This document shows positions 14,142 to 64,000 of a DNA stretch of 64,000 bases, piece after piece. Every line of letters starts with the position of its first letter. The first letter of the stretch is position 1. The DNA lies in the NCBI GenBank assembly GCA_903848645.1, contig CAINGU010000048.1, positions 1 to 64,000 of the forward strand, written 5' to 3'. The position numbers and the translations under genes were made by a program. The notes below the pieces were generated by a model, which worked only from the letters and a program-made list of their open reading frames with translations, was not told the origin of the DNA and ran no database searches. The stretch is from an uncultured cyanobacterium (lineage in GTDB: Bacteria; Cyanobacteriota; Cyanobacteriia; Cyanobacteriales; Nostocaceae).

Positions 14142-14162
14142 CTGTGACTCCTGACTCCTTTT

Positions 14163-14528
14163 TCAATGACTATTAATTGAGCTAGACAGAGGTGGGTCAG
14201 TTCTGTGATTTTCTTGGTGGTGCAGCCGTCCGAGAGTGCTATCAATCAATCTGGTCAATTTATCAGCAGCCCCATCAACAGCTTCGTCTAAGGTCGCTGC
14301 CTGATCTGTTACCGCGATGGGCTGGCGGCCTTTGAGGCGGGCTTCTATCATGCAGCGCATATCGTCATCGCCGCCCTTCTTATCGCTGTTCTCATCGCTC
14401 AGGTGAACATCAACGTGAGTGATGCTATCGCTGAATCGGCTCAGACTCTCTGCCACTACATCACTAACCTGATTGGCTAGTGCTTCGTGACCTTCGATGT
14501 TATGCCCGGTATGGATTTGGATTTGCAC
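14163..14528 (-). CDS. short HPF/RaiA-like ribosome-associated protein
   Basis: The 121-residue protein has the alpha/beta pattern of the S30AE/HPF family (IQIHTGHNIEGHEALANQV, then VDVHLSDENS, MIEARLKGRQPIAVTD and a final amphipathic helix). Such proteins bind the 30S decoding centre and inactivate ribosomes in stationary phase or the dark. It is the short form without the long-HPF C-terminal domain. It lies between the GH65 fusion gene (37 bp) and the proton pump gene (21 bp), so it is likely co-transcribed and stress-linked. HPF members that are not ribosome factors also exist. Confidence 0.75.
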   Translation of the reverse strand: MQIQIHTGHNIEGHEALANQVSDVVAESLSRFSDSITHVDVHLSDENSDKKGGDDDMRCMIEARLKGRQPIAVTDQAATLDEAVDGAADKLTRLIDSTLGRLHHQENHRTDPPLSSSINSH

Positions 14529-14565
14529 GATGTTCTCCCGTTGTAATTGTGATTGGCTTAATATT

Positions 14566-17550
14566 TCAGATGGAATGACTGAATAGAGTTTGTAAATTGG
14601 TCAGGTGAACGCCCATCAGATTGGGTAGAACAATATGAGCAGATCCGCCAAAGCGATCACTATGTCCGATTCCAATTGCCCACATACCTGCGGCGATGGC
14701 GGCTTCAACTCCAGCAGGGGCATCTTCAACCACTACACAGTGGGCGGGGTCAAGTCCTAACTGAGTAGCAGCGTAGAGAAATAAATCAGGGGCTGGTTTG
14801 GGGTGTTCAACACTGTAACCATCAGCAATTGCATCAACAAGATTAGCAATCCCTAACTTGGCGATCACGGTTCGGGCATTCTTGCTTGCAGAAGCGATCG
14901 CTATTTTTATTCCCGATTGCCTTAATTCTCCTAATAACTCAATTACACCGGGCAAAATATTTTGAGGTGTTAGACCTTGGATCGATTCGACATAGTAGCG
15001 ATTTTTGCGATCCATCATCTCTTGAAGTTCTACCTCTGAATAATTATGACTGCCAAGGATCAGCAGTAGTGATTCTCTTCTTGCTACGCCGCGCAGTGCT
15101 TCATTAGCCTGTCTATTAAAGGGTAACTTTTCTTCATCAGCTAATTTCTGCCAAGCCCGATAGTGAAATTCGGCAGTGTTCGTCAGCACCCCATCTAGGT
15201 CAAAAATGAACCCATGAATATCAGGTACTGGAGCAGGGGATAGATCGAAGCTATGGCAATTACCGCGCCATTGTAGTTTGAATTTGAGGCGAGTCCATGT
15301 CGGAGGAAGGTGGGGAGTGGCGACAGGTCCTGTGTCCGGCAATTGAATGCCCCCGAAGCCGAAGACCACGGCTTGCCAGACACCACCGGCTGAAGCCGCA
15401 TGAATACCTTCTTTTGTGTTACCGCGAGTATCTTCGAGATCGACTAAGGCTGCCTGCATAAAATGTTTATAGGCATCTGTTGTTGCCCCCAGATTAGCTG
15501 CAAGGATAGCGTGAATGGCGGGACACAAGGATGATCCATAAGTGATATCGGTGCGCTTAAAGTAGTAGTCCCAGTTCTTTTGCAGTCGCTCATGCCAATC
15601 AGGTAAAGCTTGCGTACCTCGCATCAGGTAGAGGAGCATTAGTACATCAGGTTGCTTAATCACCTGACAGTGATTAGTTTTTTCTATTCCTAGAACCGCT
15701 TGAATTGATTTATCGCGTGGCTCGTAGTTACTTAGGTCAATATCCTCAAGCTGAAAGAACCCGTCAAATTGTTCAATTAGCCCTGTTTCCCGATTGTATG
15801 GGATGTACATCTGCGTGGCGATCGCTTGGAATTGCCGTAAAACTTCTGGGGTAAGTTGCAGCTTTTGTGATAATTCCGCAGCCCGATCAGGAAACTTGTG
15901 TTGCAACCATTTGTATGTAGCAACAGCCTTTTCTAAATGCCACTGCACCATCCGATTGGTGAAGACATTGTTATTTACTTGCTCATGGTATTCATCGGCT
16001 CCCATTACCCCGCATAGTTCATATCGTTCCTGTTGAGCATTCCACTCCACTCGACTCATCCAGAATCTAGCAGTATCTAAGATAATTTCCGATCCATAGT
16101 CTCGCAGCCAAATGTCATCGCCGGTTGCTTGCGAGTATTGCCAGATGGCATAGGCAATGTCCGCACTAATGTGAATTTCCCGGTCGCGGCACCAAATACG
16201 CACAGCTTCGGCATAGGGATCGTTGAGAATTGACCATCGGGGGGTCATCTCATCTCCAGTAGCAGCACTTTCCCAGGCAAACATTGCCCCTGTATATCCA
16301 CTATGCGCTGCTTTACGTCTTGCTCCATCCAAAGTGTGATATCGGTAGGTTAGCAAGCTGCGGGCGATACCAGGTTGCGTCAAGGTGAAAAAGGGCAGGA
16401 TAAAAATTTCTGTATCCCAAAAGACGTGACCCCGGTAGCCTAAGCCCGAAAGCGTTTTGGCAGGAACGCTGACACGAGTATTGCTTGAGCATTCACCTAG
16501 AATGTGCGAAGAAGCACTAATGAAGATTTGAAATAGGTTGTATCGAACTGCCAACTGTGCTTTGCTATCTCCCTCAATCTCCACATCGCTTTGTTCCCAA
16601 ACTTCCTGCCAAGCTTCCTGATGTGCTTTAAGCAGCACCGCATAAGCCGGCAGTTCAACCAATTTAGCTTGAGCCGCCTGAAGGGGTAGATCCGCATCCT
16701 GTGACGTAAACAAAGTTACAACCTTGTCCACGCCTACGGTCTGTCCTGCTGTCACATTAAAGGAAATCATCAAAGTGGGAGTATCGAAAGTATTCGACAC
16801 CGGCAACGACACCAACGAGTCATTACCAATACCTTTGTGCGAGAGAATCGCAGTCATTTTAGCAGCTATGCCGAGTTCAATATGAGAACTGCGGGTACGC
16901 ATAAGTAGCCAAACTCCCTGCTCTATCTTGCCCCGATCTAGCTGTTCCCAGTGGTCAAAGCCTTGATTGTCAGGATAAGCATTGATGTGGGACTGAACCT
17001 CGATTTTCCAAGGGAAAGGTTGCGCCAACGTATCATTAACATTAATGGGTGTGATCTGGCATCGCAGTCCCAAAACCTGATGAACTGCCAAACTAGCAAA
17101 GCGTTCAAATCGTAGATCTAAGGTATTTCCAGTTGGGCTACGCCAGCGCACCGAACGACTCAGAACCCCGCAACGCAAGTCAAGCTGTCGTTCGTAGTGG
17201 ATAATTTCGCCGCTATCAAGTCCAAACCGTTCTCCGTTGACGACAATCACCAAGGACAACCAATCAGGACAATTTACTAGCTCGGTATAGACTCCAGATA
17301 CATCGTCATACACCCCATGTATTAAGGTGGCAGGTAAAGCCTGTGGGTAGCCCTCCTCAAAGCTGCCTCGCGTTCCTAAATAACCATTGCCAATCGTAAA
17401 GACGGTTTCTCTAGCACACAACTGCGCTGGATCAAAGTGAGGTTCGATCACCGTCCAGTCTGTGTAAAGCAAAGCATGGGAGCATGGCAGGCTATCCTCT
17501 GGGTCAAGGGCGGGCAGATTTATTTTTCCAATTGTATTGAAATCTAACAT
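14566..17550 (-). CDS. GH65 disaccharide phosphorylase fused to beta-phosphoglucomutase
   Basis: The 994-residue protein is a two-enzyme fusion. Residues about 1-765 form a glycoside hydrolase family 65 phosphorylase, with the catalytic Glu in GADEYHEQ (Glu520). Residues about 780-990 form a HAD beta-phosphoglucomutase with FDLDGVL (Asp784 and Asp786). Family 65 phosphorylases split maltose, trehalose, kojibiose or related sugars with phosphate to glucose plus beta-glucose 1-phosphate, which the second domain turns into glucose 6-phosphate. The fusion thus channels a disaccharide into glycolysis without ATP. The exact disaccharide cannot be read here; trehalose or maltose are candidates. It precedes the HPF-like and H+-ATPase genes. 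Confidence 0.92.
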   Translation of the reverse strand: MLDFNTIGKINLPALDPEDSLPCSHALLYTDWTVIEPHFDPAQLCARETVFTIGNGYLGTRGSFEEGYPQALPATLIHGVYDDVSGVYTELVNCPDWLSLVIVVNGERFGLDSGEIIHYERQLDLRCGVLSRSVRWRSPTGNTLDLRFERFASLAVHQVLGLRCQITPINVNDTLAQPFPWKIEVQSHINAYPDNQGFDHWEQLDRGKIEQGVWLLMRTRSSHIELGIAAKMTAILSHKGIGNDSLVSLPVSNTFDTPTLMISFNVTAGQTVGVDKVVTLFTSQDADLPLQAAQAKLVELPAYAVLLKAHQEAWQEVWEQSDVEIEGDSKAQLAVRYNLFQIFISASSHILGECSSNTRVSVPAKTLSGLGYRGHVFWDTEIFILPFFTLTQPGIARSLLTYRYHTLDGARRKAAHSGYTGAMFAWESAATGDEMTPRWSILNDPYAEAVRIWCRDREIHISADIAYAIWQYSQATGDDIWLRDYGSEIILDTARFWMSRVEWNAQQERYELCGVMGADEYHEQVNNNVFTNRMVQWHLEKAVATYKWLQHKFPDRAAELSQKLQLTPEVLRQFQAIATQMYIPYNRETGLIEQFDGFFQLEDIDLSNYEPRDKSIQAVLGIEKTNHCQVIKQPDVLMLLYLMRGTQALPDWHERLQKNWDYYFKRTDITYGSSLCPAIHAILAANLGATTDAYKHFMQAALVDLEDTRGNTKEGIHAASAGGVWQAVVFGFGGIQLPDTGPVATPHLPPTWTRLKFKLQWRGNCHSFDLSPAPVPDIHGFIFDLDGVLTNTAEFHYRAWQKLADEEKLPFNRQANEALRGVARRESLLLILGSHNYSEVELQEMMDRKNRYYVESIQGLTPQNILPGVIELLGELRQSGIKIAIASASKNARTVIAKLGIANLVDAIADGYSVEHPKPAPDLFLYAATQLGLDPAHCVVVEDAPAGVEAAIAAGMWAIGIGHSDRFGGSAHIVLPNLMGVHLTNLQTLFSHSI

Positions 17551-18020
17551 AGTGTTTCTATCAGAATATTGAATTAAATCTTCCAGTTACCAATAACAAA
17601 AACAAATAATTCTACCGCTCCTTTTATGGAGAAATAGGATTGCAATCTAATAGTTTAATAGCTCCATCTGCTCAAGATTCTGCGTCATCAAATATATCTC
17701 GAAATTCTTGTTTAAGTAGGTGCATTTTCTCTGTCTACGATGACTCCTACATATTTTCATTTTCCTTTCCTTTCAATAATTGAACGCAGATGGACGCAGA
17801 TAAACGCAGATAATTTTGTACTTCGTTAGACTAGGAAATTACTATATCTATTCCTCTATTAGGTTATTTCTTCTCGCTACACTATATTTCTCTGAAGCCT
17901 AATTATAATTAAATTTCTCCTAACCTTTACTCTATCTGGGGTTGGGTTGTTTTCTCGACAGAAATTCGTCTATCTACCTCTTTTGATTTGCTTATCCCAT
18001 CGCCGGTTTCCCTTGGTTGT
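17551..18020. other. intergenic region with a short direct repeat
   Basis: No gene is visible. Near 17787-17813 the sequence repeats cgcagat-type units (gaacgcagatggacgcagat and following), a dispersed simple repeat. The region probably contains the promoter for the GH65 fusion operon and the 3' end of the upstream phosphoketolase-aldolase transcript. Confidence 0.4.
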
Positions 18021-49839: not shown

Positions 49840-51207
49840 TTATTCCCAAGGAGCAGGCTTACGAATTTGCTCCCAAACTGGGCTATATAGAGCCTCAGTC
49901 AACTCCCGCGCCATTTCCACCATGCCCACATAACCAGCATAGGGATGATGACGTTCTTGGTTAATATCTAAAAAGGGAACTCTCGCTTTGAGAGCAGTAT
50001 ATTGATTTCTGCCGCCAGCAATAAGCATATCTGCGTTAGTTTCTTCAATTAATTTTAGGAGTTCTGTAGCGTTCCCCTTCTCCAACATAATCCCATCATT
50101 ACCCAACAAATTTTTGATTTTTGCTTTATCTTCTTCTGTACTTTTGCGCGTACTTGTGGCCACAACTTCAATCCCCAAATCCTTCGCAGCGGAAATAATT
50201 GACCAACTTTTCACACCACCAGTATAGAGAACAACGCGCTTGCCTTTCAACTTGGCTCGATAGGGAGCAAGGGCAATATCTAAAGCCGCAGTTTCTTCAG
50301 CAATTAACTTTTCTGTGCGTTCCTGCAAATCAGCATCACCTAATTTAGCAGCTACAGTTCGCAGACAACGGTTAATATCTTTAATTCCGTAAAATGACTC
50401 TTCAATGTAAGGAATTTCATAACGTTCCTGCATTTTTCGCGCCATATTTAATAACGCCCGTGAGCAAATCATCACATTTAATTTCGCCCGGTGAGCATAA
50501 CGCACTTCTTCATAACGAGCATCACCAGTAATTTTTGATAAAACCCGAATTCCTAACTTCTCAAATAAAGGTAAAACCCCCCACATTTCCCCAGCAATAT
50601 TGTATTCACCTATTAAATTAATATCATAAGGTGTGGTATATTCAGGTTCAGCAGTTCCCACTACATATTCTAGTAAAGCTTCACCACCAAAGCGATTACC
50701 TAAGTTTTTACTGCCAATAAATCCGGGAGCAATGACAGGAATTACCGGAGTACCAATTTTTTCCGCTGCTACCTTACAAACTGCATCAATATCATCACCA
50801 ATTAAGGCTGTAACGCAAGTAGCATAAACAAAAATAGCCGCAGGTTGATAGCGTTCTTTGAGTTCTAAAATCGCCTTATAAAGCTTTTTCTCACCACCGA
50901 AAATTACATCATTTTCACCCACGTCGGTAGTAAAACCTGTTTTATAAAGCATTGGGCCAGAAGACAAACTACCACGACTTCCCCAGGAATTTCCAGCGCA
51001 GGCAATGGGACCATGTACCAAGTGAGCAGCATCAGTAATTGGCACTAAAGCAATCATCGCTCCATCAAAGGCACAACCACCTTGAGCCGCACCGGGTTGG
51101 GCTTGTTGGGTGCAAGATTTGTTTTTCTTTTCTCCCTGTTTCTTTTGATTATGTTCGCATCCTGATTCACTCAGCAATTCGTTAATTTTACTTTGGGTGA
51201 CTTTCAT
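49840..51207 (-). CDS. nifE: nitrogenase cofactor scaffold subunit NifE
   Basis: The 455-residue protein has conserved cluster-ligand cysteines in QGGCAFDGA (Cys45), [10 protein letters not shown] (about Cys70) and [12 protein letters not shown], and a Cys-containing N-terminus. It pairs with NifN as FeMo-co scaffold. An unusually long gap of 681 bp separates it from nifK, which suggests its own promoter or processing site. Confidence 0.95.
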
Positions 51208-51888: not shown

Positions 51889-53424
51889 TTAACGAATTAA
51901 GTCGTAGGAAATGTCGGTCTTACCAGCAACATTGGTGCTGCGGTCAATTTCTTCAAATACTGTGTTAACAATCCAGTTCAACAGGTTGATGATACCTTTG
52001 TAACCAACTGTTGCGTAACGGTGGTAGTGGTGACGATCCATGATAGGATAACCAATTCTGACCAAAGGTACACCACAATCGCGCCACAGGTACTTACCGT
52101 AAGAGTTACCAATCAATAGGTCTACGGGTTCGGTGAACAACAAGGAGCGTAAGTGCCACAAGTCTTTACCACCCCAGATTTTAGCGGACTTACCGAAGGC
52201 GCTAGAATCTAACAATGCTTGCAATTCTTTCTCGAATACGTCATTGGTGTTGTGAACCAAGATGTGTACTGGTTCAGCACCCATTTCCAACATGAAACCA
52301 ACTACGCTGTAAACTAAGTCAGGATCACCGTAGATAGCGAAACGCTTACCATGTAACCAAGCATGGGAGTCGGTCATTGCGTCAACTGCACGACCACGTT
52401 CGATTTCTAACTCTTCAGGGATAGCCTTACCAGTTAATTCGCTGAGTTTCATTAAGAACTCGTCAGTTCCCTTGATACCCCAAGGACGAGCAACACAAAC
52501 GTCTTGCTTCCATTCCTTAGCGATGTATTCACGGGTTTTGGTGGTGGAGTAAGCTTGGAGAGCAACAGTAGCCTTAGCGTTGATGGAATCTGCTGCGTCT
52601 TCTAGCTTTGTACCACCTGGGTACATATTGTACTCACCATCACAAGGGGAGTCAACATAATCACTGTTGTCAGATAAAACAGTGTAGTCAATACCCATTA
52701 AGGAAGCAATCCGCTTGATTTCGCGGTTGTTTTCTACGTAGGTATCAAAACCAGGAATGAAGTTGATTTTACCGTTGCTCTTAGCTTTTTTCTTACCTTC
52801 TGTCAAGGTAGAAAGAATTCCCTTCATCATGTTGTCGTAACCGGTGATGTGAGAACCAACGAAGCTAGGTGTGTGAGCAAAAGGGACGGGGAAATCTACA
52901 GGAACTGAACCAGCTTCTTTAGCATTACCGATAAATGACTGTAAGTCATCACCGATAACTTCTGCCATACAGGTGGTGCAGACAGCGATCATCTTAGGAT
53001 TGTATAGTTTGTAGGAGTTAGCCAAACCATCAATCATGTTTTGCAAACCACCGAACACAGCAGCATCTTCTGTCATGGAAGAAGAAACGCCGGAGAATGG
53101 TTCTTTGTAGTGACGGGTTAAGTGGGTACGGAAGTAAGCAACGCAACCTTGAGAACCTTGAACGAAGGGAAGTGTACCTTCAAAACCTACAGCCGCAAAC
53201 ATAGCGCCTAAAGGTTGACAACCCTTAGCTGGGTTAACGGTTAAAGCTGTCCGTTCAAAGTTCTTTTCCCGGTATTCCCAGCTTTTTGTCCATTCGGAAA
53301 CTCGTTGTACTTCTTCAGGGGTGTGGCCGTTTTCAAACTGTTTCTTGTTTTCAAACAGTTGTTGGTATTCTGGCTGGTGGAATAGCTCAACGTGGTCCTG
53401 AATATTATTGGGATCTTGAGGCAT
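51889..53424 (-). CDS. nifK: nitrogenase MoFe protein beta subunit NifK
   Basis: From ATG 53424 ([24 protein letters not shown] ribosome site 8 bp before) the protein has 511 residues. P-cluster ligands are visible at Cys69 ([10 protein letters not shown]), Cys94 (GSQGCVAYF) and Cys152 ([13 protein letters not shown]). It forms the alpha2-beta2 MoFe protein with NifD. The frame stays open upstream to 53490, but the inner start fits family length and the ribosome site. It follows the 3' end of nifD by 187 bp. Confidence 0.97.
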
Positions 53425-53555
53425 TTCTATATCTCCAAGCTTGCTGTGTATGATGTTTGCGTTCGGTGGAGAGTGGGGAATGTGCCTCAAAATTCAGAAT
53501 GCAAAATCCAGAACTTTGAATTTTCAATTTTGAATTTTGACTTCCCTACTCCCCC

Positions 53556-53611: not shown

Positions 53612-53758
53612 TTAGACTGCTGCTGTAGCTCTTAATGCTTTCTTTGCAGACTTGTTCCAGGGAGCGCCGATTAATCCCCAGGTTGGGCTGTTGAGCGCTA
53701 AATCCATGTCACGAGCGAAGATTGCGAATCCGTCGTAACCGTGGTAAGGACCGGAGTA
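53612..53758 (-). CDS. nifD: nifD 3' fragment (MoFe alpha subunit C-terminus)
   Basis: The last 48 codons of nifD are present: [20 protein letters not shown] and the tail to the stop at 53612-53614. Upstream of the Tyr-Ser codons the frame reads unrelated residues (QQYK) and soon a stop, so the gene is cut here. In intact NifD the preceding residues are normally HSWD. The break point equals the known insertion site of the nifD excision element. The rest of nifD is not in the window. Confidence 0.95.
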
Positions 53759-53762
53759 TTTA
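53752..53762. other. nifD element recombination site, nifK-side copy
   Basis: On the minus strand the 11 bases read TAAATACTCCG. The direct repeat described for the Anabaena nifD element is GGATTACTCCG. The core TACTCCG (and the next G) is kept, and 8 of 11 positions match. This marks the nifK-proximal junction between nifD and the element. Confidence 0.8.
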
Positions 53763-53791
53763 TATTGCTGGTTTAATAGCTTTTAACTTCG

Positions 53792-53836
53792 CTATGTTTG
53801 CAGTGAGCAATGTCAGGGATGAACTATGTTTGCAGT
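53792..53836. repeat. 13-bp direct repeat between the recombination site and xisA
   Basis: Ctatgtttgcagt occurs at 53792-53804 and again at 53824-53836, 32 bp apart (about three helix turns), in the 155 bp between the nifD junction and xisA. It could be a binding site pair for a recombinase accessory factor or xisA regulator; that is inference. Confidence 0.55.
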
Positions 53837-53913
53837 TAACTCATTTATTTTTAGTCTAAATATAGTCTCAAAGATTAAGAATAAGTCTCACGCAAAGGCG
53901 CAAAGGAAGGATT

Positions 53914-55215
53914 ATGAAAGAAGAGCTATTATGGGAATTGGAGCGGGTAAATCTGCGTTTGAAGTCTGCAAAGGCTAGGGTGACTATTCGAGAATCCAAT
54001 GGATGTCTGCAATTACGGGCAACTTTACCTATTAAGCCGGGAGATGAGGATTTCAGGGGAACGGGGAAAAAACAATACAATCTCAGTTTGAATATTCCTG
54101 CCAATTTACCAGGTTTGAAAACTGCCCAGGAGGAGGCTTATGAGTTGGGTAAGTTAATTGCTAGAAAGAGTTTTGTTTGGAATGATAAATATTTAGGAAA
54201 TGAAGGAATTAAAAAGGAGTTAATAACTATTGGTGAGTTATTAGCAAGGTTTGAAGAAGAATATTTTAAAACCCACAAACGCACGACTAAAAGTGAACAT
54301 ACTTTTTTCTATTATTTTTCTCGAATTAAGCGTTATACAAATGCTGATGATTTAGCAATTGGGGAAGTTTTGATTAATGCGATTGATAAAATAGATAAGG
54401 AATGGGCTAAATATAATGCTGTGAGGGCTATTTCTGTTTTTTGTCAACTTTTTAAAGTTGAGATTAATTTAACTAATTATTCTAAAGTTCCTGAAAGTAA
54501 TTCTCGCAATGTTCCTACAGATAAGGACATAGTTACGGGATTTTACAAGTTTGATGAATATTTGCATAATCGAGGTAAGCAAGTTAATCAAGATGTCAAA
54601 GATAGTTGGCAACTTTGGCGTTGGACTTATGGAATGTTGGCGGTTTTTGGTTTACGTCCCCGTGAACTTTTTGTTAATCCTCATATTGATTGGTGGTTAA
54701 GTGATGAAAATACAGATTTAACGTGGAAGGTTGATAAAGATTGTAAAACTGGTGAACGGGAAGCTTTACCTTTATATAAGGAATGGATTGATGAATTTGA
54801 TTTAAGAAATCCTAAGTATTTGGAAATGTTGGCTATAGCAATTAGTAAAAAAGACCAAAATAATCATGCAGAAATCACGGCTTTAATTCAAAGGGTGAGT
54901 TGGTGGTTTAGAAAAATTGGTTTAGATTTTAAACCCTATGATTTACGTCATGGTTGGGCAATTCGAGCGCATATTTTGGGAGTTCCTATTAAGGCTGCGG
55001 CGGATAATTTGGGTCATAGTGTGCAGATTCACACGAAAACTTATCAACGTTGGTTTTCTTTGGATATGCGGAAGTTGGCAATTAATCAGGCTTTGAGTAA
55101 ACGGAATGAGGTGGAGTTGATTAAGGATGAAAATACAGGGTTGAAAATGGAGAATGAAAGGTTGAAGATTGAGGTGGAGAAGTTAAGGATGGAAATGGTT
55201 TATAAACGGAGTTAA
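53914..55215 (+). CDS. xisA: XisA-type site-specific recombinase
   Basis: The 433-residue tyrosine recombinase has the catalytic set Arg248/Arg250 (GLRPRELF), Tyr342-x-x-Arg345 (YDLRHGW), His368 (NLGHS) and nucleophile Tyr377 (KTYQRW). A Tyr replaces the usual His in the H-x-x-R box, a known trait of XisA and XisC. A charged C-terminal coiled coil (about 395-430) follows. The ribosome site AAGGAAGG precedes ATG 53914. It should excise the nifD element in differentiating heterocysts. It is transcribed away from the nifK-side junction. Confidence 0.93.
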   Translation: MKEELLWELERVNLRLKSAKARVTIRESNGCLQLRATLPIKPGDEDFRGTGKKQYNLSLNIPANLPGLKTAQEEAYELGKLIARKSFVWNDKYLGNEGIKKELITIGELLARFEEEYFKTHKRTTKSEHTFFYYFSRIKRYTNADDLAIGEVLINAIDKIDKEWAKYNAVRAISVFCQLFKVEINLTNYSKVPESNSRNVPTDKDIVTGFYKFDEYLHNRGKQVNQDVKDSWQLWRWTYGMLAVFGLRPRELFVNPHIDWWLSDENTDLTWKVDKDCKTGEREALPLYKEWIDEFDLRNPKYLEMLAIAISKKDQNNHAEITALIQRVSWWFRKIGLDFKPYDLRHGWAIRAHILGVPIKAAADNLGHSVQIHTKTYQRWFSLDMRKLAINQALSKRNEVELIKDENTGLKMENERLKIEVEKLRMEMVYKRS

Positions 55216-55328
55216 GTTTGGTTAATCAAGAATCTCATTTTTGTGTGATGTGGTACAATCAATCGGTGAGCAATTATCAAAATATTTATGCAAGCTGCTG
55301 ACAACAGAAGAAACCAGGAGGTCAGTTT

Positions 55329-55604
55329 ATGGAAAGTATGAAGATTAAGACGCACGTTGGTAATGATAAAATTCTCAAAATTGAACTTCCTGATGAATTT
55401 GCCAATGAAGAAATAGAAATAGTAATTGTATTTCAACGTATTGCAGAAAAATCATTACAATCTGCAAGTAAAACACCAGAAGAATTAGGATATTCTCGTA
55501 GATTTTTGGAAGAAGTAATAGGTAGTTGGGAAGGTGAGCCGCTTGAACGTCCAGAACAGCTTCATTTTGAAGAACGGGAGGAAATTCAATGGCCTATCTC
55601 TTAG
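55329..55604 (+). CDS. antitoxin-like small protein
   Basis: The 91-residue acidic protein has a short beta-rich N-terminus (KILKIELPDEFANEEIEIVI) and a charged tail (GEPLERPEQLHFEEREEIQ), typical of antitoxins that pair with VapC PIN toxins in cyanobacteria. An overlapping gene downstream begins like VapC but is cut short. AAACCAGGAGG precedes the start. Confidence 0.65.
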   Translation: MESMKIKTHVGNDKILKIELPDEFANEEIEIVIVFQRIAEKSLQSASKTPEELGYSRRFLEEVIGSWEGEPLERPEQLHFEEREEIQWPIS

Positions 55605-55699
55605 ATACAAATGCTTGTATTCAAATTCTCAATTCAAAAAATTCCATAGTAGAACTTCAGCAACTTAATCAGATAATTCAAAGACACCTTATGATATAA
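55589..55699 (+). pseudogene. truncated VapC PIN-domain toxin
   Basis: From ATG 55589 the frame reads MAYLLDTNACIQILNSKNS, the exact start of VapC PIN toxins with the first catalytic Asp. It diverges after about 24 residues and stops at 55699. The remaining catalytic acids are missing, so the toxin is dead. It overlaps the antitoxin gene by 16 bp. Confidence 0.75.
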
Positions 55700-55768
55700 T
55701 TGGTGATTAAACAGGTTAAAGAAAATCATTTATTCCAGTAATAACATCAAAAAGTCGGAGATTAGTAT

Positions 55769-56593
55769 ATGGAAAGCGGATACATATACGCGCTTAAGAA
55801 TAAATCCTTTTGTGAGTATTTAATCAAGATTGGTAGAACAACTCGAAAACCTGAGATTCGATCAAAAGAATTTTATTCTGGTAGTTCGGGAGTTCCTGAA
55901 CCTTTTGATATTGCTTTTGCTTGTCAAGTTTGTGATTGCGTGATAGCTGAGAAAACAATACACCAAAAATTGAAAACTTACAGAAACAATAACAACAGAG
56001 AGTTCTTTACTATTTCTATTGAAGTTGCCAAGAAAATTATTATTGATGTTTGTGAGGAAATTAATAAATCGTCTGGATATTCTCAGGAAAACATAATAAT
56101 TATTGATTACCAAAAAAATGATAATAATGATGAAGGTGTATCTTCAGAATATCAACATCAACTAATTTCCAAATCGTCTCAAGTTGTTAAATTTAGTTTA
56201 AATCAACTAAGTTTATCTCCAGCTTATACAAGTTCTTTGAGTGTAGAACAAAAACAAAGAATAGAAATTGTTGCAGAAATATTTAAAGATTTTATTCCTA
56301 GAAATATAGATGACTGGATTCTTGATTTTACTCGTGATTCTGACCCAGAAATAGAAATTTTAATATGGGAAAATATTGCTAAAGCTTTCCTAAAAGTTAG
56401 TGAAGTTAGATATCTGAGTGAAGAACAGAAAAAAGAAGCTCTAAAATTATTATTCAGTAGGTCTATGATTTCCGCAAGTAAAGTCTTGGAAGAGACTAAA
56501 CTAAAAACGTTCTCTAAAAAAGTTGCCAAGGAAATATTGCGTGGATATGAGATAAATCCCATACCAATTGCAGTGTACAAACCCAATTCTTAA
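55769..56593 (+). CDS. T5orf172 (GIY-YIG-like) domain protein
   Basis: The 274-residue protein begins with a T5orf172 domain: SGYIYALKNKSFCEYLIKIG, RTTRKPEIRSKEFYSGSSGV and the KTIHQKL and REFFTIS segments. This group belongs to the GIY-YIG nuclease superfamily and is frequent in phages and mobile DNA. The C-terminal half (about 140-270) is helical and unrecognised. It lies 20 bp before the AAA ATPase gene, so the two probably form an operon. Confidence 0.75.
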   Translation: MESGYIYALKNKSFCEYLIKIGRTTRKPEIRSKEFYSGSSGVPEPFDIAFACQVCDCVIAEKTIHQKLKTYRNNNNREFFTISIEVAKKIIIDVCEEINKSSGYSQENIIIIDYQKNDNNDEGVSSEYQHQLISKSSQVVKFSLNQLSLSPAYTSSLSVEQKQRIEIVAEIFKDFIPRNIDDWILDFTRDSDPEIEILIWENIAKAFLKVSEVRYLSEEQKKEALKLLFSRSMISASKVLEETKLKTFSKKVAKEILRGYEINPIPIAVYKPNS

Positions 56594-56613
56594 TTATTGT
56601 GATCTATAAAAAT

Positions 56614-57741
56614 ATGCTAGAAAAACTAATACTTCATAATTTCAAAAGCCATAAATCTACAGAACTTAATTTCGATAATTCCCGATTACATGGAATTGTA
56701 GGAAAAAACAGTGCTGGTAAAACATCTGTTTTACAGGCTTTACATAGTCTATCCATGCTTACTTATTCATCATCTACACAAATATTTAAAAATGAAAATT
56801 TACCTCAATTTATTACAACAATGGGTGAAAAAAAGATGTCTATAACGGCGAGTGGTTATTGGCAAGATAATATTAGGAAAAAGTGGAAATTTTTCTACAG
56901 TATTGAAGAGGAGAAAACTTATAATTACAATTATACCATAATATTAAGTATAGATGGACATCAATATAATTGGGATCAAGATCCACGTTTTAGAGATATA
57001 TCCAAGATTCCTCAATCTTTAAAAAATACTATCTATTTAAAATTAATTGCCAGCAACCTTGCCAAAGCAGCTTACAGTGAAGAAATTACACCGAGAGTTG
57101 AGTTTGATGGTTCATTATTAGCACCAACCTTAGATTTTTTGCGTGATGAAGCTCCAGATAAATTTCAACTAATAGAAGAAAAGCTGAGTCGAATTGTCCC
57201 AAATGTCCGTAAAGTTGGCATCAAGCGAGCAAAAGTTCCAGTCATTCGCAAACGTTTAATCGAAGTAGATGGTAAATCTATTTCCTATGAAGAAACTCAA
57301 GAAATGACAGGACAAGAAGTTATATTAGACATGAATACAGGTGAACGTATTCCAGCCCATGCAATTAGCGAAGGAACAATGTTAACTTTAGGATTATTAA
57401 CTGTATTAATGAATCCTAATCAACCTAATTTAGTTTTATTAGATGATGTGGAACAGGGACTTCATCCTCAAGCACAACGTGAGTTAATGACTGTTTTTAA
57501 AGAAATCATTGCCGAAAATCCCAACCTGCAAATTATTTTCTCTACTCATTCCCCTTATATTATTGATGCACTTGCTCCTTCTCAAGTTCACATCTTAAAT
57601 AACAGTAAATCAGGTTTCACAATTGCTAAACGTTTGGATGAACATCCTGATGTAGAATGGGCAAAGGAAACTTTAACAACTGGTGAATTTTGGGATGCTG
57701 AAGGTGAAGATTGGGTGCTAGAAGGAGAAGTTAGTGATTGA
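56614..57741 (+). CDS. OLD-like AAA ATPase
   Basis: The 375-residue protein (ATG 56614) has Walker A GKNSAGKTS (about residues 30-38), a long insert, the signature-like AISEGTMLTLGLLTVL, Walker B LVLLDDVEQGLHP and the sensor segment IIFSTHSPYIIDAL. It is an SMC/OLD-type ATPase without a visible TOPRIM domain. Such stand-alone ATPases often occur in defence modules with a nuclease partner, here possibly the T5orf172 protein. The role is inferred. Confidence 0.8.
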   Translation: MLEKLILHNFKSHKSTELNFDNSRLHGIVGKNSAGKTSVLQALHSLSMLTYSSSTQIFKNENLPQFITTMGEKKMSITASGYWQDNIRKKWKFFYSIEEEKTYNYNYTIILSIDGHQYNWDQDPRFRDISKIPQSLKNTIYLKLIASNLAKAAYSEEITPRVEFDGSLLAPTLDFLRDEAPDKFQLIEEKLSRIVPNVRKVGIKRAKVPVIRKRLIEVDGKSISYEETQEMTGQEVILDMNTGERIPAHAISEGTMLTLGLLTVLMNPNQPNLVLLDDVEQGLHPQAQRELMTVFKEIIAENPNLQIIFSTHSPYIIDALAPSQVHILNNSKSGFTIAKRLDEHPDVEWAKETLTTGEFWDAEGEDWVLEGEVSD

Positions 57742-58043
57742 GTTTATTTAATGCCCGCAAATTTATCCAAAATCCTAAATTAATTATTGAAGTTCTTTCT
57801 CCTGGTACAAGCGGTAGAGATAGAGGAGAAAAATTCAGATATTATTTAACAATACCCAGTTTACAAGAATACATCTTAATTGATTCTGAAAAAATCTCCG
57901 TTGAAAGCTATTGTCGAAAAGAAGGAAGAATGTGGCTTTATTATCCCTACAATACTGGAGACATCATCACCCTATCAAGCATTGAATTTGAATTTCCGAT
58001 AGAAATGCTTTATGATGGTGTGGGATTGGAAACAGAAACATAA
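57738..58043 (+). pseudogene. truncated Uma2-family fragment
   Basis: The frame gives the C-terminal half of a Uma2 protein (KLIIEVLSPGTSGRDRGEKF, LQEYILIDSEKISVE) without the N-terminal half. It starts at a TTG overlapping the ATPase stop. It could be translated by coupling, but the missing N-terminal segment suggests a remnant. Confidence 0.6.
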
Positions 58044-58104
58044 AATCACATTTCCCAAATAAATCTGATTAATGTCTGCTAAAATTTAATACCTTATTAA
58101 AATT

Positions 58105-58683
58105 ATGGCAAAGCGCAAAAAAAGCAATCTTCAATGGATTAAAGAAACCCTAGAATTAAAACCTGATCATCACTGGGAAGGTCCTGATGATTATAAGATT
58201 TTTGTAGCTGGGAGAGGTGCGGTTCGCTTTAATGTTCCCCAAAATTGGGTATTTGAACCACAGGAAAAATCTTTCAAGTTCATGGATAAAAAACCACCTA
58301 ATGATGATTGTTGTTTAGAGGTATCTTACAATCATTTACCTTCTAATGACTGGACATTGTTTCCCCTCAAAAACACTTTAAAAAAAATCATGGAAGATGA
58401 TAGCCGTGATGTCATTGAAAGGGGAGAAGTGATTACTGTTAAGCGACAAACAGCCAAAATTATGTGGTGTGAAATTAAATTTATTGATACTCAAACAGAA
58501 CCCAGGGAAGCTTTTTCGCGGACTTGTGTGGGTTTAGGTTCAAATATTCAATGTTTGATTACTTTTGATTATTGGGCAGATCAAGCAGAGCAATTAATAC
58601 CGATTTGGGATGAAGTTATGCGGAGTTTGACACTAGGATTATATATCAGAGATCCGAGAACTGGTTTAGCTTTCCCAGATTAA
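58105..58683 (+). CDS. conserved-looking hypothetical protein
   Basis: The 192-residue soluble protein (LQWIKETLELKPDHHWEGPD, RGAVRFNVPQNWVFEP, LYIRDPRTGLAFPD) is well formed, but I do not recognise a family. Part of its C-terminus is duplicated as a fragment at 60417-60476. It has no membrane segment. Gene order gives no clear hint of function. Confidence 0.6.
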   Translation: MAKRKKSNLQWIKETLELKPDHHWEGPDDYKIFVAGRGAVRFNVPQNWVFEPQEKSFKFMDKKPPNDDCCLEVSYNHLPSNDWTLFPLKNTLKKIMEDDSRDVIERGEVITVKRQTAKIMWCEIKFIDTQTEPREAFSRTCVGLGSNIQCLITFDYWADQAEQLIPIWDEVMRSLTLGLYIRDPRTGLAFPD

Positions 58684-58743
58684 GTAAGTGGGCGTTAAAA
58701 AATATAATATAAACCTAACCCCCCAACCCCCTTCCCTACCTCT

Positions 58744-58776
58744 CCGCTTCCCTCTCCTCTTAGGAGAGGGAAGCGG
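58744..58776. repeat. perfect 15-bp hairpin
   Basis: CCGCTTCCCTCTCCT (58744-58758) pairs fully with AGGAGAGGGAAGCGG (58762-58776) around a 3-base loop. Similar but weaker CT-rich arms follow to about 58880. It lies downstream of the hypothetical gene and may act as a terminator or repeat. Confidence 0.7.
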
Positions 58777-59078
58777 AAAGACTTTTGTTAGCTGGAAGGG
58801 GGAGTCAAAGCCTCTCCAGTATTAAGAGTTATTCCTTTTCCCTCTCCTTGTAGGAGAGGTTTGGAGAGAGGTTTTATATTTAATTGTGCCAAGCTACTTA
58901 AAATGCCGATAAAATAACCTCGGCTTGAGTTTTTGCATTACAAGTGGAGGTTGTTGATTTGACAGTAGGTAATGCGGATTTGGGTTAATTGTGGATTTTT
59001 GTGAAGATTATTGCCAATATTTTAGGTACACTAGAAGCGACAAAGCAACCTATTACAAAGATTAGTAATTCAATATTC

Positions 59079-59594
59079 ATGGCAAATCCCACCGCAACTC
59101 TTGAAACTTCCCTTGGTACTATTACTCTTGAGCTATTCACCGATGTTATGCCCATAACGGCGGGAAATTTCATCAAATTGGCCAAAAGTGGGTTTTATGA
59201 TGGTCTGCATTTCCACCGTGTAATTAAAAACTTCATGGTGCAGTTTGGTTGTCCTCACAGTAAAGATCCTAGCTCTCCTCGTGCGGGTACAGGCAATAGT
59301 CCCGATGGTTGCATTCAAGATGAGCATCCCGAAGACGGGAAACTTTCTAACGAACCAGGAACTGTATCTATGGCCAATACGGGGGCCCCTAATAGTGGCA
59401 GTTGCCAGTTCTTCATCAATACTGTCCACAACGACTACTTGGATTGGTTCACACCCAGTCCATCTAAGCATCCTGTTTTCGGTCGGGTTACTGAAGGGAT
59501 GGATGTATTGAAAGCCATTGAAACCACACCAACCGGACCTGGCGATCGCCCCAAAACACCTGTTAAAATGATCAAAGTGACTATCAACGAATAA
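59079..59594 (+). CDS. cyclophilin-type peptidyl-prolyl isomerase
   Basis: From ATG 59079 the protein has 171 residues with full cyclophilin motifs: [35 protein letters not shown] and [14 protein letters not shown]. It would catalyse cis-trans isomerisation of prolyl bonds in the cytosol. The frame is open to 58989, but the inner start is preferred. A housekeeping-type gene inside the nifD element is unusual. Confidence 0.92.
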
Positions 59595-59699
59595 AATCAA
59601 GGATTAGTGCGGAGGTTTCTCCGCACACCGTTATCTTCAGGCACAATCCCATGTTTTTCATTAAATAATTTCATACAAAAACTAATCCGATAAAACAAA

Positions 59700-60275
59700 C
59701 TAACCTTGAGTTTCTTCTTCAGTAAAAATAGGAGGCCATAATTCAGAAACAGCTAATTCCCAACCTGGAAAGAGTTCTGGTAAAGTTAAAATATCGCCAT
59801 TATTTAAAATAGTTGGTTCACCTTGATGACGATAAACTGTTACAGTTTCTTCATCAGGATCAATTACAATTCCAATAATTGCACCCAAATTAATAAAATT
59901 GAGAATTTTAGTAACTAAAGGTTTAATTCTATCACTTTGAGATTTAATTTCTACTACTAAATCTGGCACAAGTTCCCCAAAATAACGGGGACTTTGACGT
60001 AACCTTGCAGCCCGCACAAAAGAAACATCTGGTGCGGTGAGATTGCTATCAGGTAAAATAAAACCACCAGCAGAATCAAATACTCTTCCTAAACGACGAG
60101 GATAAACCCAGTTAGCTAATAGTCGGCTAAAAAGAATACCAACTTCACTAGATACGATATCTGATGGACCCACGATAGAAATTCTCCCGTTTGTTAACTC
60201 AACATCATAATCTAAACCGGCTTCACTAAAAGCGGTTTGCACTTGTTCTACATCTTTAATTGTCATAATTAACAT
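59700..60275 (-). CDS. Uma2 family protein
   Basis: The 191-residue protein has the Uma2 pattern: NLTAPDVSFVRAARL, PDLVVEIKSQSDRIKPLVTK and IGIVIDPDEETVTVYRHQGE. The family has a PD-(D/E)XK-like fold of unknown function. It is convergent with the cyclophilin gene and complete, unlike the copy at 57738. Confidence 0.88.
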   Translation of the reverse strand: MLIMTIKDVEQVQTAFSEAGLDYDVELTNGRISIVGPSDIVSSEVGILFSRLLANWVYPRRLGRVFDSAGGFILPDSNLTAPDVSFVRAARLRQSPRYFGELVPDLVVEIKSQSDRIKPLVTKILNFINLGAIIGIVIDPDEETVTVYRHQGEPTILNNGDILTLPELFPGWELAVSELWPPIFTEEETQG

Positions 60276-60325
60276 AAAATCATCCTCCTAATATACAGAA
60301 TTTAGTTAACTAATATTTTACACCA

Positions 60326-60380
60326 TTTGTCTGATAGCGTAGCGTTGGGCAAGCCATATCAGGATATCCAGAATTTTAGG
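60326..60380. repeat. dispersed repeat shared with the nifK-nifE gap
   Basis: The stretch with tttgtctgatagcgtagcgt and aagccatatcaggatatcca is closely similar to 51638-51690. Copies inside and outside the element show that the repeat family spreads independently of it. Confidence 0.6.
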
Positions 60381-60416
60381 ATTTATTTACCCTTATTGTT
60401 ATACGATTGCCCGTAG

Positions 60417-60476
60417 AGTTTGATATTGGGATTATATATTAGAGATCCTAGCACCGGTTTAGTTTTCCCTGATTGA
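60417..60476 (+). pseudogene. duplicated gene tail of the 58105 gene
   Basis: Twenty codons (SLILGLYIRDPSTGLVFPD plus stop) match the last twenty of the gene at 58105-58683, with 16 of 19 residues identical. Nothing upstream matches. It is a leftover of a former paralogue. The gap 60276-60584 otherwise holds repeats and the kinase leader. Confidence 0.75.
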
Positions 60477-60584
60477 AGTCCGTAGATATAATATGGATGA
60501 GGGAAAATGATATCAAGGAAAGTTGCATTGCTACTGAATTCGTGATTCAAATCCCAGTTAACCAGTCAAGGGAAAACAAAAATC

Positions 60585-61871
60585 ATGATTTCAGCCGCAG
60601 GGGATATTGACAAGCATCAAGAAACAGAAGAAGCTCTCAGAGATTCTCAAATAGAATTACTAGCGTTGTTCAATGCTATCCAGGATGTAATTCTGGTTGT
60701 CAGTGCAGAGGGAAGATACTTAAAAGTTGCCCCTAGTAGCGCCCCTTCATTATACAAGCCCTCTGAGGAAATACTCGGAAAAACTATACACGAGGTTTTA
60801 CCTTCCGCTTTTGCTGATTATTGCTACGATTGTATTCAGAAGACACTCGCTACCAAGAAAACTGTCACAATAGAATATAGCTTACCTATTGATGATCAGG
60901 AAGTTTGGTTTGAGGCTAGTATTGCACCTATGGGAGAGAATAATGTAGTTATCGTAGCGAGAGATATTAATGATCGCAAACGTCTAGAAGATCAATTACG
61001 TCAACAAGCAGAAGATTTAGCACAAACTCTTCAAGAACTTAAACGTACCCAAGCCCAGATGATTCATTCAGAAAAAATGTCAAGTTTGGGACAATTGGTA
61101 GCAGGAGTAGCTCACGAAATTAATAACCCTGTAAATTTTATTCATGGTAATATTACTCCTCTCCATGAATATATTCAAGACCTTTTAAGATTAATTGAAT
61201 TATATCAAAAATACGACGTTGACAATCACCCAGAAATTCAGGAACTTATAGATGAGATTGATTTGGAATATATCAAAGAAGATTTACCAAAAACTCTTAA
61301 TTCTATGAATGTTGGTACTGAGCGAATTCGGCAAATTGTTCTATCTCTGCGGAGTTTTTCTCGCATGGATGAAGCAGATTTTAAAGAGGTGGATATTCAC
61401 GCAGGCATTAATAGCACATTAATGATTTTAAAACGTCGTCTTCAAGATATTGAAGTGATTACAGACTATGGTAAATTACCTTTGGTAGAATGCTACGCTG
61501 GAGAACTTAATCAGGTATTTATGAATATTCTGGTAAATGGGATTGATGCTATAGAACAACGAAATTCTCAACTGACATTAGCAGAAATTCAAGCCAATCC
61601 TGGAAAGATTCACGTGCGAACTGAGCTAGTTAATTCTCAGTGGCTAGAAATAGCGATCGCAGATAACGGAATCGGTATGAATGAGCAAGTTCAAAAACAG
61701 ATGATGAATCCATTTTTCACCACTAAACCTGTTGGGAAAGGAACGGGTTTAGGAATGTCTATCAGTTATCAAATCATCACGGAAAGACATAGAGGGAAAC
61801 TACATTGTCACTCAATTCCCGGTAAAGGGACAGAGTTTGTTATTCAAATTCCTATTCATCAAGGAAAATAG
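60585..61871 (+). CDS. PAS-domain sensor histidine kinase
   Basis: The 428-residue protein has a PAS domain (about residues 20-130, with FNAIQDVILVVSAEGRYLKV) and a coiled linker. A HisKA domain follows with AGVAHEINNPVNF (phosphorylated His177), then an HATPase domain with NILVNGIDAIEQ, DNGIGM and GKGTGLGMSISYQI. It has no membrane segment and no receiver domain. No response regulator gene is adjacent. This kinase type is abundant in filamentous cyanobacteria. Confidence 0.9.
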   Translation: MISAAGDIDKHQETEEALRDSQIELLALFNAIQDVILVVSAEGRYLKVAPSSAPSLYKPSEEILGKTIHEVLPSAFADYCYDCIQKTLATKKTVTIEYSLPIDDQEVWFEASIAPMGENNVVIVARDINDRKRLEDQLRQQAEDLAQTLQELKRTQAQMIHSEKMSSLGQLVAGVAHEINNPVNFIHGNITPLHEYIQDLLRLIELYQKYDVDNHPEIQELIDEIDLEYIKEDLPKTLNSMNVGTERIRQIVLSLRSFSRMDEADFKEVDIHAGINSTLMILKRRLQDIEVITDYGKLPLVECYAGELNQVFMNILVNGIDAIEQRNSQLTLAEIQANPGKIHVRTELVNSQWLEIAIADNGIGMNEQVQKQMMNPFFTTKPVGKGTGLGMSISYQIITERHRGKLHCHSIPGKGTEFVIQIPIHQGK

Positions 61872-62049
61872 AGCAAAATTTTATTAATTGTAGTATTTGT
61901 CAGAAATGGCTAACGCCTCCCGTCAGGGATACAGGATATCCAGGATTTTAGGATTTACAGGATGTAATTGATTATTTTTTCAACTTATGTTATGTATCCA
62001 ATATATCTGTAATCAGCTTTATCCAAAATTGAATGGAGTTTATATATCT

Positions 62050-63135
62050 ATGATAAACCAACAAAATACCAGTAATAAAGTTATTCAAGAACTACAAAAC
62101 CAAGTTAGCGAAAAAATCATCGCTTCTTTTGATATGGTTGCACAAGATAGAAGTAATTATTTTACTAAAAATCCTTATCAACATCAAAGACCTTCCATAG
62201 AATCAGCTAATTCAATTGTCAATGGCTATGCAAAACGGAATGGAGGGATATCAGTAGCAGCTAATTTAGTACCAGGTCTATTGGGAATATTAGCAGTTGC
62301 TCCAGAAATTATCACAGTCATGCGAAACCAAATTGCCATGATTTATGATGTGGGTGTAGCTTATGACAAGCAGCAATATTTAAACAAAGAACTATTAGCA
62401 GGTGTCTTGATTTCTTCATTGGGTACAAGATTAATTACCCCCGGCATAAATGCAGTAGCAAATAGAGTTATTATTGCTCAAGGTAGTAAAATTATCGCTA
62501 GAAAAGTAAGCACGCCAATATTTCAAGACATGGCTCGTTGGATAGCAGGAAAATATGCTCAACAGGTATTGAAATCAAGTGTTAGTAAATATTTACCTGT
62601 AGTTGGTTCTACTGCTATGGGTTTATGGTCAGCCTATTCAACTAAACAAGTAGGTAATAAGTCTATTCAAATATTTGAAAAAGAAATTGAGATATTAGAT
62701 GAGACTCAATCATTAAGTGAATCTAGCATTGAATATACTGATAATCTTTTTCCTACATCTGACATAGAAGTAAATAATATAACAGGAGAAAGACTAGAAT
62801 TATTAAAGATTAAAACTCTGATTAATTTAATGAAAGTTGATGGTAGTATTGAGCCTCAAGAGAAAGAATATCTCAAGACGATTATTACTAATGCTAATTT
62901 AACATCGGCAGAAATTCAGGAAATCAAAAATTTATTATCTTGTCAAAAAATAGAAGTAGATTATTCATTAATAGCTAAATATCCCGATGATGCTTTAGGT
63001 TTATTAATTGATTTAATCGCACTTGCAAAGCGTGATGGTGATTTTCACATAACGGAAAAAATGTACATTAAGCAAGTGGGAAAGTTAATGGGATTTTCTG
63101 AGGTAGATGTTGCAGAACTGATGTTAGCTTATTAA
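62050..63135 (+). CDS. EcsC/TerB-like protein
   Basis: From ATG 62050 the protein has about 361 residues. The N-terminal half has hydrophobic segments with SVAANLVPGLLGILAVAPEI and LITPGINAVANRVIIA, resembling EcsC-type proteins. The C-terminal half (about 240-361) is an acidic helical TerB-like domain (LINLMKVDGSIEPQEKEYLK). It may be membrane-associated. Function is unknown; TerB-like domains occur in stress and defence contexts. Confidence 0.6.
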   Translation: MINQQNTSNKVIQELQNQVSEKIIASFDMVAQDRSNYFTKNPYQHQRPSIESANSIVNGYAKRNGGISVAANLVPGLLGILAVAPEIITVMRNQIAMIYDVGVAYDKQQYLNKELLAGVLISSLGTRLITPGINAVANRVIIAQGSKIIARKVSTPIFQDMARWIAGKYAQQVLKSSVSKYLPVVGSTAMGLWSAYSTKQVGNKSIQIFEKEIEILDETQSLSESSIEYTDNLFPTSDIEVNNITGERLELLKIKTLINLMKVDGSIEPQEKEYLKTIITNANLTSAEIQEIKNLLSCQKIEVDYSLIAKYPDDALGLLIDLIALAKRDGDFHITEKMYIKQVGKLMGFSEVDVAELMLAY

Positions 63136-63324
63136 AACTTCAGTAGGGTGCATCAGACAGATAACCTAGTAAAAAAAGATAAATTAAAAATCTGACGTAC
63201 CCTAAAGTTATAAAATAATACAAACCTTAAACATTAATGATAGCGATTCCTACGGAGCGCTTGCGCTATCGCACTTTCCCAAATATTCAATGATAAAATC
63301 AAGAAAACTCAAGATAATTTACCA

Positions 63325-63573
63325 ATGACAACTACACTAGTTAAACCGTCCCAATTACTACCTGAAGGAATCTGCATCAAGCATATCAACAACCTCATGC
63401 TATTCAAATTTACCGATAAGCTAGGTGAACGGATGCAAGAACTGCTTGATAAAAACAAACTGAATACCCTTACCCCAGAGGAAGCAATAGAATTAGAGGC
63501 TATAGGGGAACTTGACGACATCTTCAGTTATATTAACGCTGCTGTTGCTGCTCAAGACCATGCCCATTCCTAA
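63325..63573 (+). CDS. small partner protein of HNH nuclease
   Basis: The 82-residue acidic, helical protein (LGERMQELLDKNKLNTLTPE, IGELDDIFSYINAAVAAQ) ends 14 bp inside the following HNH gene. This coupling and size recall an antitoxin or regulatory partner. I do not recognise a named family. A palindromic repeat (63239-63272) lies upstream. Confidence 0.6.
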   Translation: MTTTLVKPSQLLPEGICIKHINNLMLFKFTDKLGERMQELLDKNKLNTLTPEEAIELEAIGELDDIFSYINAAVAAQDHAHS

Positions 63574-64000
63574 AACTCTTTATCAGCAGGTCAGACAACG
63601 CGCTCAATGTCGCTGCGAATACTGTCACTACCCTGAACTTCTCAGCACAGCACCTCTTTCTATTGACCATTTGCAACCTCAATCTCTGGGAGGTACGGAT
63701 AATTTCGATAATCTTGCTCTGGCCTGTCGTCGTTGCAATGAAAGACGCTACAACTTTACTACTGGTATTAATCCTGATACGGGAAAAGAAACTCCCTTGT
63801 TTAATCCCCGTCAGCAAATCTGGTCTGAACACTTCATCTGGAAATCTGACGGCTTATGTATTATTGGTACTACTCCTACGGGACGTGCAACCTGCGAACG
63901 TCTTGATCTAAATGATGAACGTCGTGGAGAAAAATTCATTCAGAAATCTCGACAACGATGGGTTGAAAGTGGTCTACATCCTCCTGAAGATGATCCACAA
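63560..64000 (+). CDS. HNH endonuclease (runs off the right edge)
   Basis: From ATG 63560 the frame is open to the window end (147 codons). It has the HNH core: CRCEYCHYPE (zinc Cys pair), LSIDHLQPQSLGGTDNFDNL (catalytic Asp-His) and LACRRCNERR (second Cys pair). Such free-standing HNH proteins are common in cyanobacteria and mobile DNA. The start overlaps the small partner gene by 14 bp. Confidence 0.85.
   Translation, partial: MPIPKTLYQQVRQRAQCRCEYCHYPELLSTAPLSIDHLQPQSLGGTDNFDNLALACRRCNERRYNFTTGINPDTGKETPLFNPRQQIWSEHFIWKSDGLCIIGTTPTGRATCERLDLNDERRGEKFIQKSRQRWVESGLHPPEDDPQ

Follow-up and report, generated by a model that had tools for sequence, protein, structure and literature searches.

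An XisA-type nifD element of the 1355 variant, carrying a conserved single-copy gene, in an uncultured Nostocaceae genome

The nitrogenase gene nifD is split in the stretch of DNA analysed here, the first 64,000 nucleotides of contig CAINGU010000048.1 (C48) of an uncultured Nostocaceae cyanobacterium (assembly GCA_903848645.1); this whole stretch is called the window below. With a probability of about 95%, the interrupting sequence belongs to the 'nifD 1355' variant of XisA-type vegetative-state interruption elements and is cut out in heterocysts. The assignment draws on the anatomy of the locus, an in-frame join of the two nifD parts, the absence of any other nifD above the family cut-off, an intact recombinase under selection, and conservation of the arrangement in the genus and family; the action of XisA on these cores in heterocysts would follow the behaviour of its family.

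The initial annotation, made from the window alone, had proposed that only the last 48 nifD codons precede nifK and that the 5′ part should be sought by extending the contig, in the same orientation. Both proposals held. The 3′ part comprises the last 48 NifD codons plus the stop codon (147 bp) upstream of nifK (Table 1), and the 5′ part was found on the minus strand at C48:64323–65685, 323 bases beyond the window end. The core TACTCCG is common to both ends in the same orientation (reading TACTCCG(G) at the 3′ part), with 1356 bp of nifD preceding it in the 5′ part and the core beginning at nifD base 1357. From core to core the element measures 10,571 bp, about 10.2 kb of which lies within the window, matching the earlier estimate of at least 10.2 kb. 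Joining the parts at the core in silico gave an open NifD of 500 amino acids (aa). Because the pieces are complementary, in register and in the same orientation, a chance origin of the split is not at issue. A split at 1355 ± 2 bp, direct repeats, an XisA-type recombinase near one end and a restored frame are the features by which the nifD 1355 variant is recognised, and all were present.

The target core proved shorter than annotated. The 11-bp sequence GGATTACTCCG is exact at the 5′-nifD end only, and the xisA end reads TAAATACTCCG; three of the four bases preceding the core differ, so the exact repeat is 7 bp. With up to one mismatch allowed, GGATTACTCCG had no match in the window. The rejoined 12-mer GGATTACTCCGG had no match in the whole assembly, which fits the expectation for an unexcised genome. 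We compared the junction across 81 xisA loci (the window plus 80 others, taken as the best of 96). In 75 of them, window included, the nifD 3′ part with TACTCCGG stood at most 1.2 kb from xisA, and six were not placeable; TACTCCGG occurred in all 75 placeable xisA-proximal junctions. The four bases before the core were GGAT in 53 junctions and different in 22, the window having TAAA. Invariance of the distal TACTCCG holds by construction, as the search pattern contained the core. The xisA-proximal arm was conserved (mean 0.76 at positions −30 to −8 and 0.76 at −75 to −31); as the nearer stretch is no more conserved than the farther one, we do not claim a distinct extended binding (arm) site near the core.

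A complete nifD elsewhere, which would speak against a programmed split, was sought in the genome (5.41 Mb in 119 draft contigs, with completeness rated at 99.99%). Of five matches to the NifD model, only one was above the cut-off of 653.55: the 5′ part itself (C48:64324–65640, model positions 1–434). The 3′ part matched at 53657–53767 (model positions 430–466), and no other nifD exceeded the cut-off in this genome, the best remaining match being a NifE-type homologue at 340 bits and the rest weaker. A draft assembly could have produced the split as a chimera by fusing two separate loci. However, nifD was split at this place in 15 of the 16 genus genomes (the present one included) and whole in one, four of the split genomes consist of one or two contigs, and xisA genes 94–98% identical to this one adjoin the nifD 3′ part in independent assemblies (L029–L033). 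With the split shared by 15 of 16 genomes, we rejected an assembly artefact, whose probability is negligible. In five genus genomes, the first nifD piece already ends near model position 285–301. Among the 145 family genomes, 122 had a match to the window XisA, and in 99 it reached at least 73% identity, a level taken as nifD-type collectively rather than gene by gene. The layout corresponds to the programmed rearrangement of heterocystous cyanobacteria that was originally suggested.

The xisA gene starts, as annotated, 155 bp beyond the core, on the strand opposite to nifD. PHROGs integrase models matched its product, and the Pfam match fell below the curated cut-off. The body of the protein was open in all 81 loci (425–449 codons), and R248, Y342, R345, H368 and Y377 were present in all 81; the catalytic ones among them are assigned from the family in general. 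A tyrosine replacing a histidine is described for XisA, XisC and XisG in the part of PMC3610870 that treats these recombinases. The window XisA was 93–98% identical to its seven nearest loci, and its pairwise ratio of nonsynonymous to synonymous substitution rates (dN/dS) was 0.05–0.13 against 11 relatives chosen from the 80. A strict motif for a 39-residue N-terminal extension was matched in 27 of the 81 proteins; the other 54, window included, comprise a few close variants, and the rest are without the extension, have it out of frame or lack its start. Since the extension is lost or out of frame in many loci and the body is always open, translation probably starts at an internal methionine in many strains. 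By eye, a similar N-terminal stretch was seen in the neighbouring nifH and hupL recombinases.

Several points weigh against an element that is excised in heterocysts. The window XisA is without the 39-aa extension of some relatives and its leader is also different, which could alter its expression or activity; the two repeats match exactly over just 7 bp; and excision in this strain is deduced from related systems rather than observed. Taken furthest, the absent tail and leader would mean a dead XisA, an element that can no longer be excised, a broken nifD and the loss of nitrogen fixation. However, the XisA body is intact with the low dN/dS given above, the tail motif is unmatched in 54 of 81 proteins whose bodies are all open, both nifD parts are open and in frame when joined, and the open reading frames (ORFs) recognised by eye as nifB, fdxN, nifS, nifU, nifK, nifE and nifN are all open. 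On the open frames and dN/dS we rejected a decayed element, which is very improbable. For the excisable nifD 1355 element, the proposed course is as follows. In vegetative cells, nifD would stay split after 1356 bp. As heterocysts differentiate, XisA, whose gene sits a short way in from the nifK-proximal end and points away from nifK, would recombine the TACTCCG direct repeats, releasing a 10.57-kb circle (junction AAATACTCCGA) and rejoining nifD in frame (junction GGATTACTCCGG). A second XisA-family recombinase next door would do likewise for nifH, and XisC for hupL.

The expectation that excision of this element makes the nif operon whole was only partly borne out: the two nifD parts join in frame in silico, but the operon's nifH is interrupted as well, and nifHDK therefore requires two excisions. 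The nifH cores, CCGTGAAG, lie at C48:66291–66298 and 73669–73676, 7,378 bp apart, and joining at the core gave a 289-aa NifH. The recombinase inside the split gene belongs to the XisA family (50% identical to XisA), and the CCGTGAAG repeats with an XisA/C-type recombinase between them mark a nifH1 (XisG) element. Its cargo (L009/L010) includes a type II restriction–modification pair and a UG14 (DRT) reverse transcriptase, both with strong PADLOC matches. A second, unsplit full-length nifH match over the NifH cut-off was observed on another contig (C37:117592–118413; L013). Similarly, hupL is split on contig C42 (50788–62527; L021, L011) by an element of about 11.7 kb. The repeat CACAGCAGTTATATGG is exact at 50788 (5′ side), its last 12 bases are exact at 62516 (recombinase side), and the XisC-type recombinase inside is 49% identical to XisA, features that mark a hupL (XisC) element. 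The cargo includes proteins resembling what we take to be DUF4157.

The closest published systems compare with the window as follows. The 1355 variant of Hilton, Meeks and Zehr (2016; PMC4874684) and the window agree in insertion point, direct repeats, variable cargo and a recombinase gene that lies close to the nifK end and runs opposite to nifD; the window differs in its exact repeat of only 7 bp and its own cargo set. Anabaena sp. 90 (PMC3542288) likewise has nifD divided into 1356 + 147 bp, a nifH interrupted at that same second site (153 + 273 = 426 bp) and a hupL element, but its nif-operon elements measure 20.7, 5.9 and 80 kb and two of them lie in nifH. In Nodularia spumigena CCY9414 (PMC3610870), nifD, nifH1 (XisG) and hupL (XisC) are interrupted, CCGTGAAG repeats flank the nifH1 element, and CACAGCAGTTATATGG stands at the hupL 5′ side. 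Its nifD repeats are also unequal, the xisA-near copy being the changed one, with one differing base compared to three of eleven here; sizes and cargo are unlike those found here (10.6, 7.4 and about 11.7 kb). The 11,268-bp nifD element of Anabaena PCC 7120 (PMC1079853) resembles the present one in size, in holding xisA and in having most cargo on one strand, read away from xisA; unlike it, the cargo scanned here had no cytochrome P450 (cyp110) among its Pfam matches. Excision of nifD and fdxN elements was confirmed by RNA-Seq in Nostoc sp. N6 (cyanolichen Nostoc paper), and nifH1 rearrangement activity is cited as demonstrated in PMC3610870. Taken together, Hilton et al. and the papers on Anabaena sp. 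90, on cyp110, on N. spumigena, on WA102 and on a cyanolichen Nostoc treat nifD, nifH1 and hupL elements.

Table 1. Features of the nifD element and its nifK-side flank, in window coordinates
Feature	Position	Strand	Basis or remark
nifK	51889–53424	−	Open; start is the ATG inside a longer ORF (51889–53490); named by eye
nifD 3′ part, 48 codons + stop	53612–53758	−	Profile match and join
Recombination core TACTCCG, xisA-proximal copy	53752–53758	−	Other copy at C48:64323–64329, outside the window
Leader between core and xisA, 155 bp	53759–53913	+	Sequence comparison
xisA, 433-aa tyrosine recombinase, intact	53914–55215	+	Integrase matches, conserved residues, dN/dS
91-aa ORF, no family	55329–55604	+	ORF list, locus comparison, Pfam scan
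T5orf172/MUG113 protein	55769–56593	+	Pfam; PADLOC PDC-S57
AAA ATPase (AAA_21/AAA_15)	56599–57741	+	Pfam, PADLOC; matches in 10 of 80 loci
101-aa Uma2-like ORF	57738–58043	+	Shorter form of a 192-aa Uma2-like ORF in L035
192-aa conserved protein, only copy found in the genome	58105–58683	+	Predicted PsbP/Mog1-like fold
Cyclophilin-type peptidyl-prolyl isomerase	59079–59594	+	ORF opens at 58989; start set by comparison with L029
Uma2-family protein	59700–60275	−	Pfam
PAS-domain sensor histidine kinase	60585–61871	+	Pfam and further family scan
Protein with TerB match and sub-cut-off EcsC match	61987–63135	+	Pfam
82-aa ORF	63325–63573	+	ORF list, locus comparison
HNH endonuclease	63557–64000, on to C48:64006	+	Pfam; element ends at C48:64329

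Across the 80 other xisA loci, many of them shortened by flank length, the cargo is a mosaic: the AAA gene had matches in 10, the gene for the 192-aa conserved protein (hereafter the 192-aa gene) in 30, and the T5orf172 protein in none. Among 21 complete elements (window included), xisA was present in all, the 192-aa gene in 13 and the next family in 5. Hilton et al. (PMC4874684) mention a hypothetical protein in 17 elements and an ATPase in six, possible counterparts of the 192-aa gene and the AAA gene here. PADLOC matched the T5orf172 protein (PDC-S57), the AAA protein (HEC-01A/AriA-like) and, more weakly, the HNH protein (PtuB-like); these matches notwithstanding, we make no claim of a defence island.

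The association of the 192-aa gene with the nifD element is strong, as judged from its distribution in the 145 family genomes. The gene occurred in 119 genomes, in 116 of them as a single match, as in the window's genome. Both the gene and an XisA of at least 73% identity were found in 90 genomes, the gene only in 29, XisA only in 9 and neither in 17 (Fisher p = 1 × 10⁻⁴, on the assumption, not true here, that genomes are independent). The two were on the same contig in 67 of these 90 genomes, within 40 kb of each other in 62; in the remaining 23 they are on different contigs, where distance cannot be judged. In the 33 genomes assembled into 10 contigs or fewer where the gene and xisA share a contig, the gene lay no more than 40 kb from xisA in 28, and in 27 of these it was on the xisA strand, downstream of xisA. 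Among the five exceptions, G064 has the gene at a distance of 71 kb, yet between its two nifD parts. All 13 complete elements that carry the gene have it on the same strand as xisA; L095, an element locus not included among the 21, carries it on the opposite strand.

The gene is kept in 29 of the 46 genomes without this xisA, and we therefore rejected it as element-specific. nifD was whole in 24 of these 29. In seven of the 29, the gene shared a contig with a nifD match, in six of them about 160 kb to 1.25 Mb apart. In G068 the gene lies between two nifD parts, which points to another kind of nifD element there. Fourteen chromosomal copies were sampled, 12 of them from genomes where this XisA is absent and two from genomes where it is present. 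Two sets of three have common neighbours, one more copy matches the first set on one side, and the other seven share no adjacent gene family with any other. A tree of 29 element and 14 chromosomal rows required nine switches of place (8–9 on bootstrap), three of them forced by starred branches, compared with a shuffled mean of 12.1; 16–21 of 500 shuffles were as low. One row labelled as element, that of Dolichospermum sp. UHCC 0259 (L035), actually lies beyond the distal nifD junction. The number and direction of moves between places are not settled by this tree.

At that Dolichospermum locus (13043–17593), a block of Uma2, 192-aa, cyclophilin and Uma2 genes stands beyond the distal nifD junction, and the nifD part adjoining it is itself shortened. 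Given this position next to a shortened nifD part, the cargo appears to have relocated to a second nifD element, and G068 may be alike.

The 192-aa protein is strongly constrained, with a mean column identity of 89% among 29 members and dN/dS of 0.05–0.11 against nine chosen relatives. It had no match in Pfam (E up to 1), NCBIfam, PHROGs or PADLOC, and a PDB sequence search with its profile gave nothing better than E 0.24, with three ribosomal S2 chains at E 0.24–0.29; no signal peptide was evident by eye. The best AlphaFold2 model had a mean predicted local distance difference test score (pLDDT) of 76.5, and four others 60–66. The best Foldseek matches, 35 with E up to 0.001, had a query template modelling score of 0.36–0.59 and an identity of 6–19%. 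The solved structures nearest to the best model were PsbP/CyanoP/Mog1/DcrB-like, and the matches also included LpqN and Eag-type chaperones. The predicted fold may resemble that of PsbP, CyanoP, Mog1 and DcrB; in sequence the protein did not match the PsbP family, either in Pfam or, better than E 0.24, in the PDB. Among the matches listed in the open-access literature, no title or abstract described a gene of this kind; the supplement of Hilton et al. and Henson et al. 2011 lie outside that scope.

Hilton et al. (2016; PMC4874684) call it a mystery whether such elements are of any advantage. The odds are roughly even that the element is purely selfish, with random cargo and the 192-aa gene there by chance or drift. 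The cargo is mosaic, xisA is the sole gene common to the 21 complete elements, eight of which lack the 192-aa gene, nine genomes have xisA only and 17 have neither. Against this stand the presence of the gene in 13 of the 21, its position at most 40 kb from xisA in 28 of the 33 near-closed genomes where the two share a contig, and on the same strand downstream in 27 of the 28, its low dN/dS, and its retention in 29 of the 46 genomes without this xisA. A rather unlikely alternative is that the nifD element is the usual home of a single-copy, strongly constrained Nostocales gene, not mere selfish DNA, and that selection on the gene helps to keep the element. As heterocyst excision would take the only 192-aa copy off the chromosome, selection on the gene in vegetative cells would help to retain the element, and many element-free strains hold the gene elsewhere. 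On this reading, should the PsbP-like fold point to a role in a photosystem, excision would rid heterocysts, the cells that shut photosystem II down, of a photosynthesis gene. We offer a host benefit from the 192-aa gene, or an explanation of element persistence by it, as a hypothesis. Element-free strains are reported to grow and fix nitrogen normally (PMC4874684, PMC1079853), which argues against an essential role of the gene, if those elements had it.

These results add one more genome, with three elements, to an arrangement that is well known in heterocyst-forming cyanobacteria, and they are a warning that nifD and nifH lie in pieces in vegetative genomes of this genus. The linkage of a conserved, nearly always single-copy gene to the nifD element offers a concrete, testable candidate for the benefit of such elements.

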